This document shows, piece by piece, positions 1,116 through 64,000 of a DNA stretch of 64,000 nt. This DNA comes from Liolophura sinensis (lineage: Eukaryota > Mollusca > Polyplacophora > Chitonida > Chitonidae), in contig NC_088306.1 in the NCBI RefSeq assembly GCF_032854445.1, forward strand, positions 17,209,764-17,273,763, read 5' to 3'. Below the pieces are notes generated by a model that saw only the letters and a list, made by a program, of their open reading frames with translations, made no database searches and was not told the origin of the DNA. Position 1 is the stretch's first letter, and every line of letters begins with the position of its first letter. The translations under genes were made by a program, and so were the position numbers.

Positions 1116-1439
1116 GGGAGAGATGCAGTGTAATGCGACTTACTCGCTTTGTTTTCTTAGCAGGTGGAGACTTCGACAAACCATCTAGTGAAGGATTTAG
1201 GGCTAAAAATTCTGTGACTGAAAAAGAGGGGACAAGTACAAATTTAGTTAAACTTTAAATGTTAATCAGAATTAAGAAACTGTATTCATATTCCTTCAAA
1301 CCTTAGAGATGTTACATTTTTATTATAACTTTGATGTTTGCACTTAACACACCCTACAAAGTCAACGTTTACAAAACCACACAATTGCAACTTGCATCCA
1401 AGCTGGAAAGACAGTGCTTTCCTGTCATACAAAAGCACT

Positions 1440-3345
1440 ACTTTCCTACCTGGTCCCAAGTGGGAATGACTTTGCTCTCTTGTAATACATCAATAGTACT
1501 TTCCCACCAGGTCCCAAATGAGACTGATTTGATCTCTTGTAATGCACCAGTAGTACTTTCCTACCAGGTCCCAAGTGGGACTGACAGTGCCCTCTTGTAA
1601 TGCACCAGTAGTACTTTCCTACTTGGTCCCAAGTGGGACTGACATTGCTCTCTTGTAATACATCAGTAGTACTTTCCTACCTGGTCCCAAGTGGGACTGA
1701 CTTTGCTCTCTTGTAATCCACCAATACTACTTTCCTACCAGGTCACAAGTGAGACTGACATTGCTCTCTTGTAATGCAGCAGTAGTACTTTCCTACCTGG
1801 TCCCAAGTGGGACTGACATTGCCCTCTTGTAATACATCAATAGTACTTTCCTACCAGGTCCCAAGTGGGACTGACATTGCTCTCTTGTAATGCACCAGTA
1901 GTACTTTCCTACCAGGTCCCAAGTGAGAATGACATTGCCCTCTTGTAATGCACCAGTAGTACTTTCCTACCTGGCCCCAAGTGGGACTGACATTGCCCTC
2001 TTGTAATACATCAGTAGTACTTTCCTACCTGGTCCCAAGTGGGACTGACATTGCTCTCTTGTAATACATCAATAGTACTTTCCTACCAGGTCCCAAGTGA
2101 GACTGACATTGCTCTCTTGTAATGCAGCAGTAGTACTTTCCTACCTGGTCCCAAGTGGGACTGACATTGCCCTCTTGTAATACATCAATACTACTTTCCT
2201 ACCAGGTCCCAAGTGGGACTGACATTGCTCTCTTGTAATGCACCAGTAGTACTTTCCTACCAGGTCCCAAGTGAGAATGACATTGCCCTCTTGTAATGCA
2301 CCAGTAGTACTTTCCTACCTGGCCCCAAGTGGGACTGACATTGCCCTCTTGTAATACATCAGTAGTACTTTCCTACCTGGTCCCAAGTGGGACTGACATT
2401 GCTCTCTTGTAATACATCAATACTACTTTCCTACCAGGTCCCAAGTGAGACTGACATTGCCCTCTTGTAATGCACCAGTAGTACTTTCCTACCTGGTCCC
2501 AAGTGGGACTGACATTGCCCTGTTGTAATACATCAGTAGTACTTTCCTACCTGGTCCCAAGTGGTACTGACATTGCTCTCTTGTAATACAACAGTAGTAC
2601 TTTCCTACCAGGTCCCAAGTGGGACTGACTTTGCTCTCTTGTAATACATCAGTAGTACTTTCCTACCTGGCCCCAAGTGGGAATGACATTGCCCTCTTGT
2701 AATACATCAATACTAATTTCCTACCTGGTCCCAAGTGAGACTGACATTGCTCTCTTGTAATGCACCAGTAGTACTTTCCTACCAGGTCCCAAGTTGCCCT
2801 CTTGTAATGCACCAGTAGTACTTTCCTACCAGGTCCCAAGTGGGACTGACATTGCCCTCTTGTAATACATCAGTAGTACTTTCCTACCTGGTCCCAAGTG
2901 GGACTGACATTGCTCTCTTGTAATACACCAGTAGTACTTTCCTACCTGGTCCCAAGTGGGACTGACATTGCTCTCTTGTAATACATCAGTAGTACTTTCC
3001 TACCTTGTCCCAAGTGGGACTGACATTGCTCTCTTGTAATACATCAGTAGTACTTTCCTACCTGGTCCCAAGTGGGACTGACATTGCTCTCTTGTAATAC
3101 ACCAGTAGTACTTTCCTATCAGGTCCCAAGTGGGACTGACATTGCTCTCTTGTAATACATCGGTAGTACTTTCCTACCTGGTCCAAAGTGAGACTGACAT
3201 TACCCTCTTGTAATACATCGGCAGTACTTTCCTACCTGGTCCCAAGAGGGACTGACAATGATCTCTTGTTATACATCAATACTACTTTCCTACCTGGTCC
3301 CAAGTGGGACTGACATTGCTCTCTTGTAATACATCAATACTACTT
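1440..3345. repeat. 58-bp minisatellite, about 33 copies, with 348-bp higher-order period
   Basis: The unit contains GTACTTTCCTACCTGGTCCC, then AAGTGGGACTGACATTGC and CTCTTGTAATACATCAGTA. Repeat starts are 58 bp apart, for example at 1621 and 1679. A block of six units recurs at 348 bp (variant unit at 1737 again at 2085). Read in the direction of UBXN7, every unit contains CAGGTAGGAAAGT, a good match to a 5' splice site. It lies in a UBXN7 intron or beyond its exon 8. Confidence 0.95.
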
Positions 3346-3639
3346 TACCAGTTTAACAACAAAAGGAATAAACCATTGACTACACACCTTCAGTGAGAAA
3401 AAGTTCAGGAAGGGAAAGGTTTACATTAGCTATAGCCAGATGAGCTACGAGTCAAAGGTATCCAGAATAATGTAACCATGAAGTGACCCTGAGGGTCAAT
3501 ATTAGACAATCAACGCTGTTGTAATTCATGCATAAAACACGGATGTCAGAAAGTTCAAACAGTATTAACATTCCTTTCTTTTACAGACAAGGGCCATAAC
3601 TCCACCCAGCTTTATAATTTAGCAGGGCTGACTTCTTAC

Positions 3640-3693: not shown

Positions 3694-6600
3694 CTGAACA
3701 AAACACACACATCAATATTAACTATGATGTTAATAACTATAATTAACTAGAAGTTGCCCCATTCACCTGTGGTTTAAATCAGTCACATTTGCATCTCAGA
3801 TGGCTGCAATTTTAGATTTGTAAGCTCTTGCGGTAGACGGGAGCTGGCAGCTAATTTCACTTGACAGCCTTGTGCCTTAACCTAACAACGACATCCTTAG
3901 TACATACATTAAATATTCATTCACTAAAATTCTACATTGGAAATTTTATCCCCATTCCCAGTAACTGAAAATTCCAAGTAAGAAGTGTTACTTTGAAATG
4001 TTGCCATTTTATTGGTTGAGGGAAGCAGGTGCAGCCATTGTCCACGAGTGGGTGTTAATTTGACAACGACTGCTCGTTGTAGTAAAGTGCAACCTGGAAT
4101 GCAAAAGAGAAAGGCCTGTAACAGCCAGATAGCTGGCTGCATTATAAGGACACACCTGTTCTTGGATCCAGCACTGCTACATACGGCCATGTGGTGATTT
4201 TGTAAAACTGCATGTACTTCCTGCCTTCTTCACTGTCATGGTACACCTGGCAACAGCAAAATGCTCTACTGAACAAATGTACATGTACCATAGAAACATG
4301 GGAATACACCAACCACTCAGTAATGTATAGATAGGCTAGTTTGGCCAAGACTCCATTGTCAAGTAACGGTTCCGTCATCGCACAATCCACTTCAGTCCAG
4401 TTGTCTTCAACCTCTGCCTCTGGTTTACTTAGATGAAGTCGCAACTGCCGTTTCCAGGTCCTTTTTTGGTAAGTTCCTCCAGCTCACTGATGTTATGGAT
4501 GGATAACTCGTGTTGTGTTTAATGTTGTGTATGGATAATTGATGTTGTGGATGGATAACTGGTGCTGTGAATAGATAATTGGTGTTGTGGATGGATAACT
4601 CGTGTTGTGTTTGATGTTGTGGATGGATAAATCATGTTGTGTATGGATAGTGCATGTTGTGAATGGATAACTGATGGTGTAGATGGATAACTTGTGTTGT
4701 GTTAAATGTTGTGTATGGATAATTTGTGTTATGGACGGATAACTGATGTTGTGGATGGATAACTCGTGTTGTGTTTAATATTGTGTGTGGATAATTGGTG
4801 TTATGGATGGATAGCTGATGTTGTGGATGGATAATTCGTGTTGTGTTCAATGTTGTGGATTGATAATTGATGTTGTGAATGGATAATTGATGTTGTGGAT
4901 GGATAACTGGTGTTGTGAATGGATAATTGATTTTGTGGATAGATAATTGATGTTGTGAATGGATAATTGATGTTGTGAATGGATAATTGACATTGTGGAC
5001 AGATAACTGATCAACTTGTCGATGCACAGATTTTAGTTCGAATTCATCAGCTTTCTTCCCACAAAAATAAGACTGTAATTTTCGGGGTCATGAATCCAAC
5101 GATCTTGGTAATGAGTGTACTGTTGGGCAATATTGTAGATTTAATGCTCATCATAATCCTCCATCATGAAATTATGCTTCGAGGATGGCGGGATTCTGGT
5201 GGGCATATTCCACGTCTACTGGTAACTTTTCCCAGCAAAGTGAACTAGGCTAATGACATGTAGACAATTTGTTCCCGTGAGAAGCATCAAACTTTTCAGC
5301 ATGTATGTTTAGAATAGGTCGAAATATGGGAAAACGTCGGCTTCACTATGGAAAACCATATGAACGGAGATTTGTCTAGGTATGTGGTGTTAGCATGCCT
5401 TTTTCCCCCTTGTCAAGCTGCTCTCCTCATTTATGGTGTCAATGAAACTTTTCAGGTTCTCCTCAGTCTTCAGCCAGCTTCTCAAAGTGGATTCTGATAT
5501 CTCGTTGTTTTCCCCGACTTTTAGCACATGGCTCCCCAGTCACTCTGGTTATTGCCAGCCGTTTGTCAGATCCTGTGTAGGACTTTCTCTGGGCATCAGG
5601 CAGCTTGTAATCAGCTCCTGTGTAGGATTTCCGCTTGGCATCGGGCAGCTTGTAATCAGCTCCTGTGTAGGATTTCCGCTTGGCATCGGGCAGCTTGTAA
5701 TCAGCTCCTGTGTAGGATTTCCACTTGGCATCAGGCAGCTTGTAATCAACTCCTGTGTAGGATTTCCGCTTGGCATAAGGCAGCTTGTAATCAGCTCCTG
5801 TGTAGGATTTCCGCTTGGCATAAGGCAGCTTGTAATCAGCTCCTGTGTAGGATTTCCACTTGGCATAAGGCAACTTGTAATCAACTCCTGTGTAGGATTT
5901 CCGCTTGGCATCAGGCAGCTTGTCATCAGCTCCTGTGTAGGATTTCCGCTTGGCATCAGGCAGCTTGTAATCAACTCCTGTGTAAGATTTCCACTTGGCA
6001 TCAGGCAGCTTGTAATCAGCTCCTGTGTAGGATTTCCACTTGGCATCAGGCAGCTTGTAATCAGCTCCTGTGTAGGATTTCCGCTTGGCATAAGGCAGCT
6101 TGTAATCAGCTCCTGTGTAGGGTTTCCGCTTGGCATGAGGCAGCTTGTAATCAGCTCCTGTGTAGGATTTCCGCTGGGCATAAGGCAGCTTGTAATCAAC
6201 TCCTGTAGGGTTTCCGCTTGGCATGAGGCAGCTTGTAATCAGCTCCTGTGTAGGATTTCCGCTTGGCATAAGGCAGCTTGTAATCAACTCCTGTGTAGGA
6301 TTTCCGCTTGGCATGAGGCAGCTTGTAATCAGCTCCTGTGTAGGGTTTCCGCTTGGCATCAGGCAGCTTGCAATCAGCTCCTGTGTAGGATTTCCTGATG
6401 ATTTAGCATCAGGCAGCTTGTAATGTCTACTGGTATGAAATTGTAATTCTTCAACCTTTTTGCATGATTGCATTGTGTTTATTCAAGCACACTTTGAGGG
6501 CTTTATTCTGCACAGACTGATACAATTATACTTTTCTTGAAGCCTTGAAATTGGCCAACCAAGCCAATGTAGCTGTGTCTTTAAAAAGAAATTAAAAAGG

Positions 6601-9600
6601 TGCATAAACAGCAGTGAAAGTTGGTCTTTTATACGCAAAAATGTTGATGAATTTGGGTAACTGCACAATGAGACAGCCACATTTCACCTTATCGGATTAT
6701 CATTACATGTAATAAAGCTTACTTTATTGCCACCTTGCTCTATTACAAAACAATAACTTATTACAGAAATCTTTAACAACACTAGGGTCATGGCGATGCA
6801 ACAGAAAGCGATGTGAGAAAACACAAAAACTCTTGTCTCCATCTTAATTTCTAATAATATCTTATACACACACATTTTCTAACAAACACCTGAAACGGCC
6901 TTACTGCTGAAAGCTGATTAAATAGTTCCGCGTAAGAACACCAGTGGTGAGGCTAAGCCTAAACAGGCCACCATGTTTGGCATAAAGGTCAATCTTGTCT
7001 AGTGATGAGAGTGATGTGAAGAAAGTTCAAAGAGCGGTAAAGAATAAGGAACTTGACACATACCTGCCAGAAGACAAAATGCTGTTTGATGATAGCCTTG
7101 ACAGCACTGTTACTCCATACATCTCTGTTCAGGGCCTGACACGCAAACTCCTGAACGTTCTGAACATTCACCATTAGCCACCGCCCATCAGTCGTGCCGC
7201 TGTCTCTCGCCTGTCAATCAAACAACAGTACTTAACACACCACATACCAAGCCATGGCAGCATGTTGCTTCGGATCTAGACATTGAATGATTGAATGATT
7301 TGAGTGATTTGAAATTAACCACGAAAACTACATTTGATCTACTTCATGAGGGATAATTCACTGACGTAAAGGTGCCCTTGTACATCACACGAATAGGAGT
7401 GATAACTCAGGAGCTCTTTAATCTCACAGCAATGGGTGGGGTAACTCACCTTGTCTCTCGTATCAATGGGCGGACCAACTTACAGCTGTAAAGGAGCCCT
7501 TGTATACCTCATCAACGGGAGGGATAACTCACCGATGTGAAGGAGCTCTTGTGCATAGCATCAATGGGAGGGATAACTCACTGATGTAAAGGAGTCCATG
7601 GGTATCGCATCAGTGGAAGAGCCCTTGCGCATTGCATAAAAGGGGAGGGCCAACTCGCCAACATGAAGGAGCCCTTGTGTATAGTATCAATGGGAGGGAT
7701 AACTCACCAACATGAAGGAGCCCTTGTGTATAGTATCAATGGGAGGGATAACTCACCAACATGAAGGAGCCCTTGTGCATAGCATCAACGGGAGGGATAA
7801 CTCACCAACATGAAGGAGCCCTGGTGCATAGAACCAATGGGATGGAGAACTCACCAACATGAAGAAGCCCTTGTGCATAGCATCAATGGGAGGGATAACT
7901 CACCAACACGAAGAAGCCCTTATGCATAGCATCAATGGGAGGGATAACTCGCCAACATGAAGAAGCCCTTGTGCATAGCATCAATGGGAGGGATAACTCA
8001 CCAACATAAAGGAGTCTCTGTGCATCGTATCAGTGGGAGGGCTAACTCACAGATGTAAAGGAGCCTTGTGTATCATACCAATGGAAGGGATAACTCACTG
8101 ACGTAAACGAGCAGAATAACTCAACGTATTGTATCAATGGGAGGGACAACACACCAATGTAAAGGAGCTCTTGTGTATCGGATCAATAGGAGAGATAACT
8201 AACTGGCGTAAAGGAATCCTTGTGTATCGCATCAATGTGAGGGATAGCTCATCGACGTAAAAGAGCCCTTGTGTATCGAATCAAAAGGAGAGATAACTCA
8301 CTGATGTAAAGGAGCCCTTATGTATCATATCTATGGGAGGTCTGAACAGGTCTTCTAACGTCTTCCTCTTACTGTTGCTTCGCGTCACAGAGCGCATAGC
8401 CTCCTGCTGGCCTGTGGAGAAAATTGAAATGCAAACCACATGAGAAGTAAGCACAGGTAAATAATGTTCATAAATGTTATAATGATGATGTCTTACTCTT
8501 TCTTGCTTATGAGTGCTTTAAAGGAAAAGAAAATTTAAATATCAATCAGATACCACTGAAAAGAGTATGCATTTCCGCGCAGGTGCATGCCATAAAAAAA
8601 ATTCTAATATGTACCTAAAGGTCATAAATTATAAATAAAAAATTCTTATATATATCGCTGTGGGCAACTCCACTTTGCCTAAGAACTAGTCCTGAAGTCT
8701 TCTGTGTTAGGAGGAGAATTGCCATCGGAAACCACCAAAATGCAGTTCGTACATTTCTGGTAGAACTCTTCTTCCCAGAAGGTGGCGACCAGTACATTCC
8801 TTTTTCCACTTGACGATCGGGAAACCGAAATGTTGGACATAGGTTCCGAGTTTACACGAACAAGCCGGCAGTTTTAACAACTCTCACTGGCTGAGAGGCA
8901 ACACACCCTTAGAATAAATTACAGGGTGTTAAAGATGGAGGACATGATGGACTTGGCGATAAATGCCAGCTTTACCGTTTTCAGGCTTTACGTGTATGGC
9001 GAGGAAAAATCGCAAAACTATGCAGCTGGCAACACCAGATAGAAAAAAAAGTGCTCTTTTCAGCCTATAGTGTCATGTTTTGAAGTTTTTCTTCTCCTTT
9101 TAAAGATTTACTGGATTATCATACATACTGTCAAGCCTCTTGGGTATCAACTGAACAAACATGCATAACCATAATTATGACTTATTTATTTATTTGATTG
9201 GTGTTTTACACCATACTAAAGAATATTTCACTTATCCGACGACGACAGGCATGATATGACTTATTTAGTTACTTCCTGTTTGGGTTCATATTGACTTTAA
9301 GTATCCTATGCTTGTAACATATGGACATGATGATGCTCAGTTTGCTTTCTGACACATTTTTGTCATTCACACCGTGATCCCTTTTACTTTCCCCACGAGT
9401 TGATACTTACGTGTTTCTGTTTCAAAATCTCGAAATCCATCGAACACGGATCTGGCTGTTCTTCTCCTTCCCCGAAAGCCTTAGGACAAATTAGAAAATA
9501 AAGGAGACAGTTATTATTTTCTTCTTAGACAAAGTGGAAAACAAAAATAAACAATTAAATACTCATCTATGTACAGGAAAAAAGTGATGAAAAAGTACTA

Positions 9601-12600
9601 AAGAGTGTGACTGGCAGTATTACTGACAAATACTCAACAATTCCTTGTTTCCCAGGCAGTGGGATCATGAAACCATCTTAAACTTTAACTCAAAATATCA
9701 ATCATTAAACCTGGTATTTTCCTGTATGTAACAAATAACAATTTTAAAGAGATTTGAAACTCTGACTTAAGTCTAAAATAGTTTCCTGATCATGGAATCA
9801 AATTATTTTCAGCTCTAAATGACTCACAGCCTTAAAAGCTGAACTCGCATCACTTACAGCCCTTAAAGCTGAACTCGCATCACCAACAGCCCTAAATGCT
9901 GCTTGCATCACTTACAGCCCTAAAAGCTGAACTCGCATCACTCACAGCCCTAGAAGCTGAACTCACATCACTAACAGTGCTAAAAGCTAACTCATATCAC
10001 TTACGGCCCAAAAAGCTGAAGCCATCTTAGTGACAGCCCTGAAAAATGAAATCACATCATTTACAGCCCTAAAAGCAGAAATCACATCAACCACTTCACA
10101 GCTTTAAACTTTTAGCTATGAAAGCAGAGCAAAATACTGCATGGAATCCACAAACCTTTGCAAAAGATTCGCTTTGGAGCCTTAATCATGCATTACATGC
10201 AATCTCAAACCAGAAGCTCTTCTAAACATCTTCATCAAGGTTGTCAGAGGGTCATGTCTCAGAATCATTACAATAACTACGATAGAAACGTCCCAGGGAC
10301 ACTTTACTTTACAGGAAAAGTAAAAAGTACACCGGAACACTCAACCCTGGCCTGTTACACTGTATAAAACAGAATAAATGCTTGGTTTTAGAAATCTTAC
10401 TTAAAAATTAGAATGTTAAGAGAAAGATTTTGGTAACAAGTAACTGCCAGCCATCAACTCAGCAGAACACTCTCCGCCCTTGTAAACTACGTTCTCAAAC
10501 CAGCCCCCTCACTTACTGGACCTTATGATGATACCTATTGATATTTCTGATGAACCAGTGTGAATAGAGAATTCAGAAGTTAGTCTGGAAGACAAAATCG
10601 TGTTAAAATAAAAGTTTGGAATGTGTGGCGATTTCTTTTTTACAAGAAAGCACTCAAGAGCGATGATGAGTATTAGAATAGGGGAGTTTCATGTTGAAAC
10701 TCCTTTGTCATCCAAGGTAAAAGTGGTCCTCCTGTCATGTGAATGGTAAAGTTTAGGTAACCTTTCTTCACATTAATTCACTGATCACCTGTCTCACCCT
10801 TTCCCTGAGGCACTGTTGACACCTCTTTCCTTTAGAAACGTGCCAGGGATACTTTACTTCATTTTCACGATTTTGAGCCAAGTGTTTTCAAGGCACATCG
10901 GGTGATTTCTATTAACCAAACTTGTAACGAAACAAGTCTGAATGTGTTTTTCCATGATTACCTGAATCTGGATATTATTCACGTTAATCCACAAGAGTTT
11001 AATTACCATTTGTAGTACATGTACCATTCATACCAATTTCTTTCCCACATTATCAGCAGACTACCATTTGACTTAACCTTAGATATATGTACCTGACAGT
11101 TAACCTAAATTTTCAGACAACCTTCTATACTTCTCACAAAGGGGGCATCCTACTTATTACTTGTGAAAGCTACTTGTCTGTTGTTTATTACAACACTTTG
11201 GGAAATTCTATTTAGTAAGTTACTTTTTTTTAACTTTCCTGTCAAGGCCAGAGACATTAAATTTACATTTATGATGTCTGACATTTGATTTATTTGTTGG
11301 ATTTGCTTTTTGCATAGTATTCAAGAATATTTTATTTATACAATGGCGGCCAGCATTAGGTGGGAGAAAACCCATGACCCCATCTGACATTTGAGATAAA
11401 GCAACCATCAGGTACAAACACAAATAAGTCATAAACACTTAGTCGTACAGGTAGGACCAGGCAGTAGCTCCTACTTGTCACTGGACAGGTGCATGCAGCC
11501 ATAAAACAGCAGCGCAAAAATATACAGCACATGACACACCAACCAATCAATTTACCTGCATCAAAGATCTCTCTGTGCACTACAAAATAGGAAGGCAATG
11601 GTTGGATGTTTGGATTCACTGAAGAATTATTTTGGCAACAGGAAATTAACACTTACATCTACATCTGACTAACATATACCATAAAGCGCGACAAGGTTCT
11701 GTCATACATGTAGTCTCGAGAGATATCACACGGTTTCAAACTACCTACAGAGGAGTTACATAACCTACTTCTGGTAGCCATACTGGAGTTCTGTACCTAT
11801 AGCAGCCCATGTAAACAAGACTCCAAAATGGCTACCTTGCTATTGTTCTGCCAAGGTGATGACGTCACGTGCAACCCCTCTGTCTTTTAATTTTTGTTAA
11901 CTTTTCTAGATTCACTTTTATTTTTATGACATTCAAATGTCTGAATGAATGGATAGTAATAATGTTATACCGCAATAGCGATATTTAAGTGATTTCTGGT
12001 ATCTGACCGTCCACACCCATATTTATTGCTGCAAATTTGTGATTAGTTCCCAGTTTCCTGCTTTGCTCAAGATTTATTAATTTACTTATCTGATTGGTGT
12101 TTTATGTCGTTCAAGAAGAAGAGCTACATTTCCTAAACTCAAACTAACGTGCTTGACAGGCGTTAATCTACATATTGGGTGCACGCACCATGTTTTCTCA
12201 AAGGGCACTATACAAAGCAGAAAGGGGTCAATTTTAGTCAATTTGAAGGCTTTTGCCCCCTGAAGACACTGTTCAGTAAATACTGGGAAAAGCAGTGTTG
12301 GGGTTGTTTGACCTTGAATTGACCTTGAGTCATAGGTTTAGCCAGGAGGGTGTCAAAGCGTCTTTGAGACGCCCTATTCTGACGAAATTAACATGGGAGA
12401 GATAGAGAAAATTGGAAACGAAACGGCTAAATCTATGCCTTGAGTAGATCGTGTTTAGTCTTTGAATGCAGTCTGCCTTATTACAGCTTACCGTATACTG
12501 GTGTCTCTTCTACGAGGGTTTCCTCTTTCTGTGGGATGGGAGCTCGGACCTCGCTGTAAGTACACAGGACACGTGAAGGTCTTGGTTACACAATCAATGA

Positions 12601-62849: not shown

Positions 62850-62932
62850 AAAGTACTGGCCCTGTACCAGTATAATGTGACTGGACGGGTGTAATGCCTG
62901 GAGTCTTCGGCATGATACTTCAGTGGAGGTAC
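62850..62932 (+). repeat. SINE-C internal fragment
   Basis: GACTGGACGGGTGTAATGCC, then TCTTCGGCATGATACTTCAG, the inverse of the SINE-C body seen at 25260 and 27960. It runs directly into the 17-bp array. Confidence 0.7.
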
Positions 62933-62934
62933 AA

Positions 62935-64000
62935 ACCACATACACCTACAAGCCACATACACCTACAAGCCACATACATCTACATGCCACATACACCTAC
63001 AAGTCACATACACACCTGCAAACCACATACACCTACAAGCCACATACGCACCTACAAGGCACCTACAAGCCACACACATCCACGAACCACATAAATCTAC
63101 GAGCCACATATGCATACAAGCCATACACGCCTGTAAGCCACATACACCTAAAATCCACATACACCTACAGGCCACATACACCAACAAGCCATATACGGCT
63201 GCAAGCCGCACACACACACACACGCACGAACCACATACACCTACAAGCCACATATCTACAAGCCACATACACATACAAGCCATATACAAGCCACACATCT
63301 ACAAACCATATACACCTACAAACCATATACACCTACAAACAACATACACCTACAAGCGACACCCCTACAGGCCACATACACCAACAAGCCACATACAGTT
63401 GCAAGCCACACACACACGCACGAACCACATACACCTACAAGCCACACATCTACAAGCCACATACACCTACAGGCCGCGTACACCAACAAGCCACATACAG
63501 CTGCAAAGCACACACACACACGCACGAACCACATACACCTACAAGTCACACATCTACAAGCCACATACACCTACAAGCCACATACACACCTACAAGCCAT
63601 ATACACCTACAAGCCATATCCACCTACAAGCCATATCCACCTACAAGCCACACACACACACGAACCACATACACCTACAAGCCACATACACCTATAAGCC
63701 ACACATACAGGCCAAATACAAGCCACATACACCTACAGACCACATACACCTACAAGCCACACACACCCACGAACCACATACACCTACAAGCCACATACAC
63801 CTACAAGCCATACACCCCCGCGCGAACCATATACACTTACAAGCCACATACACGTACAAGCCACACACATACCTACAAGTCACATACACCCACAAGCAAC
63901 ATACACCCACAAGCCACACACACCTACAAGCCACATGCATCTACCAGTCACATACACCTACAGGCCACACACTCCCAAATGCCACATACACCTACATTCA
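62935..64000. repeat. 17-bp minisatellite running off the right edge
   Basis: Units of CCACATACACCTACAAG with many short variants (CACACACA expansions, CATACAGCTGCAAG). Larger blocks such as CCACATACACCTACAGGC plus ACACCAACAAGCC recur at ~110-120 bp between 63160 and 63500. Open frames here are repeat artefacts. Confidence 0.95.

Follow-up and report, generated by a model that had tools for sequence, protein, structure and literature searches.

A minisatellite made of exon–intron boundary copies in the UBXN7 gene of the mollusc Liolophura sinensis

The window is a 64,000-nucleotide stretch of the Liolophura sinensis genome (contig NC_088306.1, positions 17,209,764 to 17,273,763). Six exons of the gene UBXN7 were placed on its minus strand (table 1). 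The 181-aa spliced product matches PDB entry 2dlx, the UAS domain of UBXN7, with an E-value of 3.2e-60 (residues 36-174), and the Pfam family Thioredoxin_7 with an E-value of 1.5e-14. The alignment with the human UBXN7 structure 2dlx is free of gaps across HKGSFTS|ARDSG; together with the phase, this match makes 8302 a well-supported predicted end for the exon considered below. In the downstream flank, an open frame on the minus strand (L032, 6084-6191), selected for its motifs and assessed by visual inspection, contains FRYPDGSREQL, which resembles the start of a UBX domain.

Table 1. Features of UBXN7 and of its 49-bp array, with positions in the window.
Feature	Position	Strand	Details	Basis
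UBXN7 exon	9479-9411	minus	one of six placed exons	
UBXN7 exon, source of the repeat	8302..8411	minus	110 nt, end ..RPPIDMIHKGSFTS	splice signals, phase, PDB 2dlx alignment
UBXN7 intron	7211..8301	minus	1091 bp, of which 950 bp (87%) are array	splice signals, unit alignment
Next UBXN7 exon	7064..7210	minus	start ARDSGTTDGRWLMVNVQ..., phase 0 join	phase and PDB 2dlx alignment
UBXN7 exon	4246-4156	minus	one of six placed exons	
UBXN7 exon	3693-3640	minus	one of six placed exons	
UBXN7 exon	1217-1144	minus	one of six placed exons	
Exonic part of first unit	8302..8340	minus	39 nt, PPIDMIHKGSFTS	unit alignment
Authentic donor (predicted)	8292..8301	minus	GTGAGTTATC, TCA|GTGAGT, score 5.43	splice signals, donor matrix
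20 intronic units	7352..8291	minus	copies of exon tail and donor	tandem-repeat search, unit alignment
Three exon-proximal units	8145..8291	minus	changed donor cores ATGAGC, GTTAGT and GTGTGT	unit alignment, core count
Seven middle units	7698..8040	minus	6/7 with TTG|GTGAGT (8.98, above the authentic donor)	unit alignment, donor matrix

The intron that follows the 110-nt exon carries a tandem array with a unit of 49 bp. A tandem-repeat search detected this period over 7449-7616 and 7643-8340, and wrap-around alignment to the unit gives an array that begins at 8340 and, read along the minus strand, ends at 7352, with one exonic and 20 intronic units. A previous reading of the sequence alone (hereafter the sequence-only reading) had described about 20 tandem units over 7351..8411. 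Its count agrees with the alignment; its extent includes, at 8341-8411, sequence that is exonic but lies outside the array. Fifteen of the 20 intronic units are full-length without gaps, one has a 7-nt insertion, one has a 1-nt deletion and three are decayed. The unit consists of 39 nt of exon (PPIDMIHKGSFTS) and 10 nt of intron (GTGAGTTATC) and spans the exon–intron boundary; the authentic boundary is the first unit of the array (8340-8292), in register with the others. The DNA fold of the unit is not unusual (z -0.17 and 1.13), which leaves a hairpin-driven expansion of the array without support.

The 49-bp unit derives from the UBXN7 exon end and its donor, as the sequence-only reading had proposed. 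The exonic 39-mer shares 30 of 39 bases with its own intron, and the similarity between the 8302 junction and the units exceeds that of all 2000 shuffles (mean 19.2, maximum 27). The other five exon ends of the gene reach 17-21 of 39 against any of the five introns, so that no other array in UBXN7 qualifies as exon-derived, and two control 39-mers reach 17 of 39 at best. A 25-nt pattern from the second half of the unit (at most three mismatches) has 16 matches in the window, where 0.01 are expected by chance; all lie within the 49-bp array, the exonic copy included. For a 32-nt pattern from the first part of the unit (at most two mismatches), there are at least eight matches in the 609-Mb assembly, all within the same array.

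Two other arrays were observed in the gene. A 30/88-bp array lies upstream in UBXN7 (window 9822-10089), with GTAAGT- and GTGAGT-like sites on its sense strand. Another UBXN7 intron contains a 58-bp array (window 1410-3346; 33.6 copies) with the donor-like sequence CCAG|GTAGGA on the sense strand; this intron has 34 donor-like sites at or above the threshold on that strand, and there is no sign of an exon origin. A row of donors alone is therefore no proof of origin from an exon, and the special feature of the 49-bp array is its homology to the exon, not the number of its donor-like sites.

The history of the array was studied with a distance matrix and a tree of the 16 intact units. Among the middle units (7991 to 7697), any two are separated by 2 to 8 bases, whereas the edge units 8291, 8242, 8193, 7620, 7522 and 7400 show 9 to 20 differences from every other intact intronic unit; unit 7571 lies near the far edge and yet closely resembles the middle family. 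The similarity of adjacent units was exceeded by 23 of 10000 shuffled orders. The middle of the array is homogenised, and both edges are diverged and old. The sequence-only reading had noted the likeness of the middle units and the divergence on the exon side, both of which are confirmed; the far-end units are diverged too, and its suggestion of an expansion directed away from the exon is replaced by a pattern of old units at both ends and a homogenised interior. Between the exon and the intronic copies (15 intact units), the mean identity is 0.84, 0.76 and 0.58 at codon positions 1, 2 and 3, against a nearly even 0.87, 0.85 and 0.82 among the intronic copies themselves. As the differences from the exon are concentrated at third codon positions, only the exonic copy looks selected for its protein sequence.

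The UBXN7 array is a real exon-boundary minisatellite of an already known kind. Such arrays, called mirages, occur in lancelets in Adh3 and in the globin genes BflGb6 and BflGb9 (PMC3087553), to which PGBD5 and TnC were added (PMC3902484). They are tandem copies of exon–intron boundaries, many with splice signals, homogenised on the inside with the edges excluded, and RT-PCR suggests that regular splicing is undisturbed by them; the units measure 10-72 bp (Adh3), 150-160 bp (BflGb6) and 157 bp (BflGb9), and the BflGb6 array has six and three units in its two haplotypes (PMC3087553, PMC3902484). The UBXN7 array likewise has a unit that crosses the boundary, includes the authentic boundary as one copy, contains many copies of the splice signal and is homogenised inside with its edges excluded. 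It differs in belonging to a mollusc and in the 20 intronic copies of 49 bp that fill 87% of the intron.

A search of the open-licence literature at the level of titles and abstract starts found no mirages outside lancelets, a result that does not establish their absence, and no earlier report of such an array for UBXN7 or for molluscs; a phrase search of the same literature, aimed at one mollusc repeat, gave no paper either. From its title, a work by Turri and others of 1995 is said to concern a minisatellite that supplies many donors in a human interferon-induced transcript; the unit is reportedly 12 bp long and located at a donor of the gene 6-16/IFI6. The UBXN7 minisatellite also supplies many donor copies, known here by their sequence; unlike in the human one, the unit is 49 bp long and all downstream donors share a single early stop. 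The earlier remark that no described example was known in this gene may hold; the kind itself has been described, in the lancelet mirages and, by title, in the human minisatellite.

Some other systems are related more distantly. Introns can be gained when proto-splice sites are duplicated in tandem (Rogers 1989, as cited in PMC3087553 and PMC2812944); potato RdRp is listed as a related case (PMC4974935). The tandem duplication in UBXN7 similarly takes in splice signals; unlike in these cases, the UBXN7 intron appears to have been enlarged rather than newly gained. Human segmental duplications contain internal repeats of minisatellite size, some at exon–intron boundaries, that alter gene structure; they concern recent primate paralogues, and the passages on them describe no row of donors like that of UBXN7 (PMC2812944). 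A nematode minisatellite has been linked to multiple splicing decisions (PMC4039745).

We consider it probable that the array is an exon-boundary minisatellite of the mirage kind, born by slippage and tolerated while its first donor is used. The stretch of 39 nt of exon and 10 nt of intron would have been duplicated in tandem, and slippage or unequal exchange may then have expanded the copies to most of the intron and homogenised the middle. The exonic copy, held by selection on the protein, would be the donor in use, which agrees with the in-phase, gap-free UBXN7 match that use of the first donor gives. The downstream copies would be decoys, possibly bound by U1. Reading through the authentic donor yields VSYLSF followed by TGA, 21 nt past the donor, and any leakage to downstream donors might thus end in nonsense-mediated decay. 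The sequence-only reading had stressed that a unit length of 49 is indivisible by 3, so that a downstream copy would shift the frame; the arithmetic is right, but the shift matters little because every downstream donor, in any frame, includes this TGA, and its use would be expected to give a truncated product or decay. Since the first donor is presumably used and leaked transcripts, sharing one stop, would be removed by decay, such an array could be tolerated and nearly neutral. Its function would most simply be none, the copies being tolerated decoys behind a used first donor.

The strength of the donor copies has to be weighed against this reading. By a donor-matrix score, the authentic donor is the lowest of the six UBXN7 donors placed, the others scoring 6.91 to 9.74. 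Counting the authentic copy, the intron contains the exact cores GTGAGTTATC, GTGAGTTA and GTGAGT 9, 11 and 12 times, respectively, in line with the earlier estimate of about ten units with a usable-looking core. Besides the authentic donor, 14 sites in the intron score at least 5.43, of which 12 lie within the array and two (7247 and 7240) beyond it; in 1000 shuffles of the whole intron, such sites averaged 2.8 and never numbered more than 9. At 8.5 or more there are eight array copies, where the shuffles averaged 0.4 and had three at most. These eight downstream copies, well above the authentic donor by matrix score, make leakage or regulation possible. The row could be regulatory, the copies recruiting U1 and keeping unproductive splicing at a controlled level, with the array length tuning UBXN7 output. 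The excess of strong sites, at both thresholds, and the single stop common to all downstream donors fit this alternative. So does a mild excess in conservation of the donor hexamer among units (0.911; two of 48 other windows are as high), a weak hint of constraint; the 10-nt donor is conserved at 0.90, a level found in eight of 48 other windows. However, the three units nearest the exon all lack a GTRAGT core, use of the eight strong copies would produce exons of 410-962 nt, and the 34 donor-like sites of the 58-bp array intron arose without sign of an exon origin. We regard the regulatory row as unlikely.

The state of the three nearest units could also mean that selection removed competing donors beside the exon, so that a cleared zone shields the first site. 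The absence of GTRAGT from all three has a probability of 0.048 when the 12 good cores are shuffled among the 20 units, and in the chitinase intron described below the acceptor copy nearest to the exon lacks AG. This observation is post hoc and concerns two loci. Moreover, the third unit (TTG|GTGTGT) scores 6.15, above the authentic donor, so that two of the three units are truly weak. The hexamers of the three units carry 4 changes in 18 positions, compared with 30 in 129 in the rest of the same units; having aged no faster than their surroundings, they are sufficiently explained by neutral ageing of edge units, and a cleared zone seems improbable.

An assembly artefact is very improbable: arrays are prone to misassembly, but these units are individually distinct, their gradient of divergence is ordered and, among the matches listed, the unit pattern occurs at one place in the assembly. 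Least credible of all is the reverse order of events, with an existing minisatellite turned into an exon end, which accounts for the shared sequence and nothing beyond it, while the exonic copy codes for a stretch conserved without gaps in human UBXN7 and the intronic copies have not kept this code.

The wider occurrence of arrays was assessed in a 254-kb sample consisting of the window and 19 stretches taken at fixed steps, with arrays defined by units of 20-200 bp in at least three copies. The arrays total 31,882 bp, or 12.5% of the sample; this genome is very rich in minisatellites. Arrays were also present in three of five further stretches. The idea that minisatellite units are generally rich in splice motifs was rejected in this sample, the mean rank p being 0.51 for donors and 0.48 for acceptors (57 rows in 46 blocks; ranks from a home-made dinucleotide-swap shuffle). 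Three of the 57 rows have p <=0.05 as donors and six as acceptors, four of these six being rows of one array (L022). The UBXN7 49-bp array is not among the three donor rows; the chitinase array is one of the six acceptor rows (p 0.03). With plain shuffles, six rows score at least 8.0 as donors against 3.9 expected, of which three belong to L022 and two are UBXN7 arrays.

The acceptor counterpart was found in a chitinase gene (L009; G000:C1:3000001-3010000); it came to notice on visual inspection of the open frames that overlap arrays and was then tested. The intron 5898-6968, preceding the exon at 6969, contains an array of 42-43-bp units, each built around a pyrimidine tract and CAG, giving a row of about 20 acceptor copies (6107-6968). 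There are 22 acceptor sites scoring at least 6, including the authentic one (11.7), and 11 others equal or exceed it; the rate outside is 3.8 per kb. All but one of the 21 non-authentic sites lie within the aligned row, the exception (6049) preceding it. The row ends, in register, with the authentic acceptor, and the copy without AG adjoins it. Similarity on the exon side amounts to 9 of 13 bases, equalled by 19 of 5000 random 13-mers. The exon at 6969 matches GH18 (E 1.2e-7), and the best match of the spliced peptide to chitinases has an E-value of 7.1e-16; the junction is gap-free in the two alignments shown, with a two-residue gap upstream of it. On these splice signals and peptide alignments, the predicted chitinase array is verified as the mirror image, in acceptor form, of the UBXN7 donor array.

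The two loci add a mollusc to the lancelets as carriers of splice-junction minisatellites, and its genome has both a donor form (UBXN7) and an acceptor form (chitinase). They are natural experiments in which the spliceosome has to settle on one site where between twelve and about two dozen resemble it, several of them stronger by the matrix, and show how introns can grow from exon ends. The chitinase array is the one verified splice-junction array in the 19 sampled stretches, too few for a rate. We hold it possible, though rather doubtful, that slippage at splice junctions is a common route of intron growth in this genome and that many introns consist for the most part of their own donors or acceptors, repeated in rows. 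In that event, the spliceosome would routinely pick the authentic end among a dozen or more look-alikes, and such rows would be a source of change in intron size, in splicing and in exon borders.

Other arrays near possible exons were also inspected. The L022 array (4786-8493 of G000:C5:12000001-12010000) consists of about 70 copies of a 53-bp unit with the acceptor-like sequence TTCCTGCAG|G. It ends at a possible last exon that has no Pfam match; it resembles the exon start only weakly (p 0.026, 1000 shuffles), and four of 275 other 77-mers of the locus are as good. Two candidates were rejected by eye as junction arrays, since neither contains the splice junction: an array near a chitinase exon (L009, from 3247) and another near a zinc-finger exon (L015, 998-1569), which stops before the acceptor. 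A Pfam scan of 99 members (98 open frames over arrays and the possible L022 exon) gave 21 families at E <=0.01; those traced to individual members correspond to two chitinase exons, the zinc-finger exon and scattered weak matches in repeats. By eye, CBM_14 agrees with an exon whose linker contains an array.

At a separate locus (G000:C8:37880506-37891931), open frames of 429-529 residues encode eight haemocyanin beta-sandwich domains (PF14830), all oriented the same way within 11.5 kb. Eight such units in a row are the layout of molluscan haemocyanin, which lancelets are not known to have, and so point to a mollusc as the probable source of this genome. None of 14 control genomes matches PF14830; all are prokaryotes, which makes them uninformative on other animals.

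Two further arrays were observed in the window. A 45-bp array of 18.5 copies on the minus strand (5566-6395) lies within an open frame of 339 residues (5466-6482); the unit length is a multiple of 3, and this frame is probably not a gene. A 17-bp array of about 62 copies (62930-63996) reaches the end of the window.
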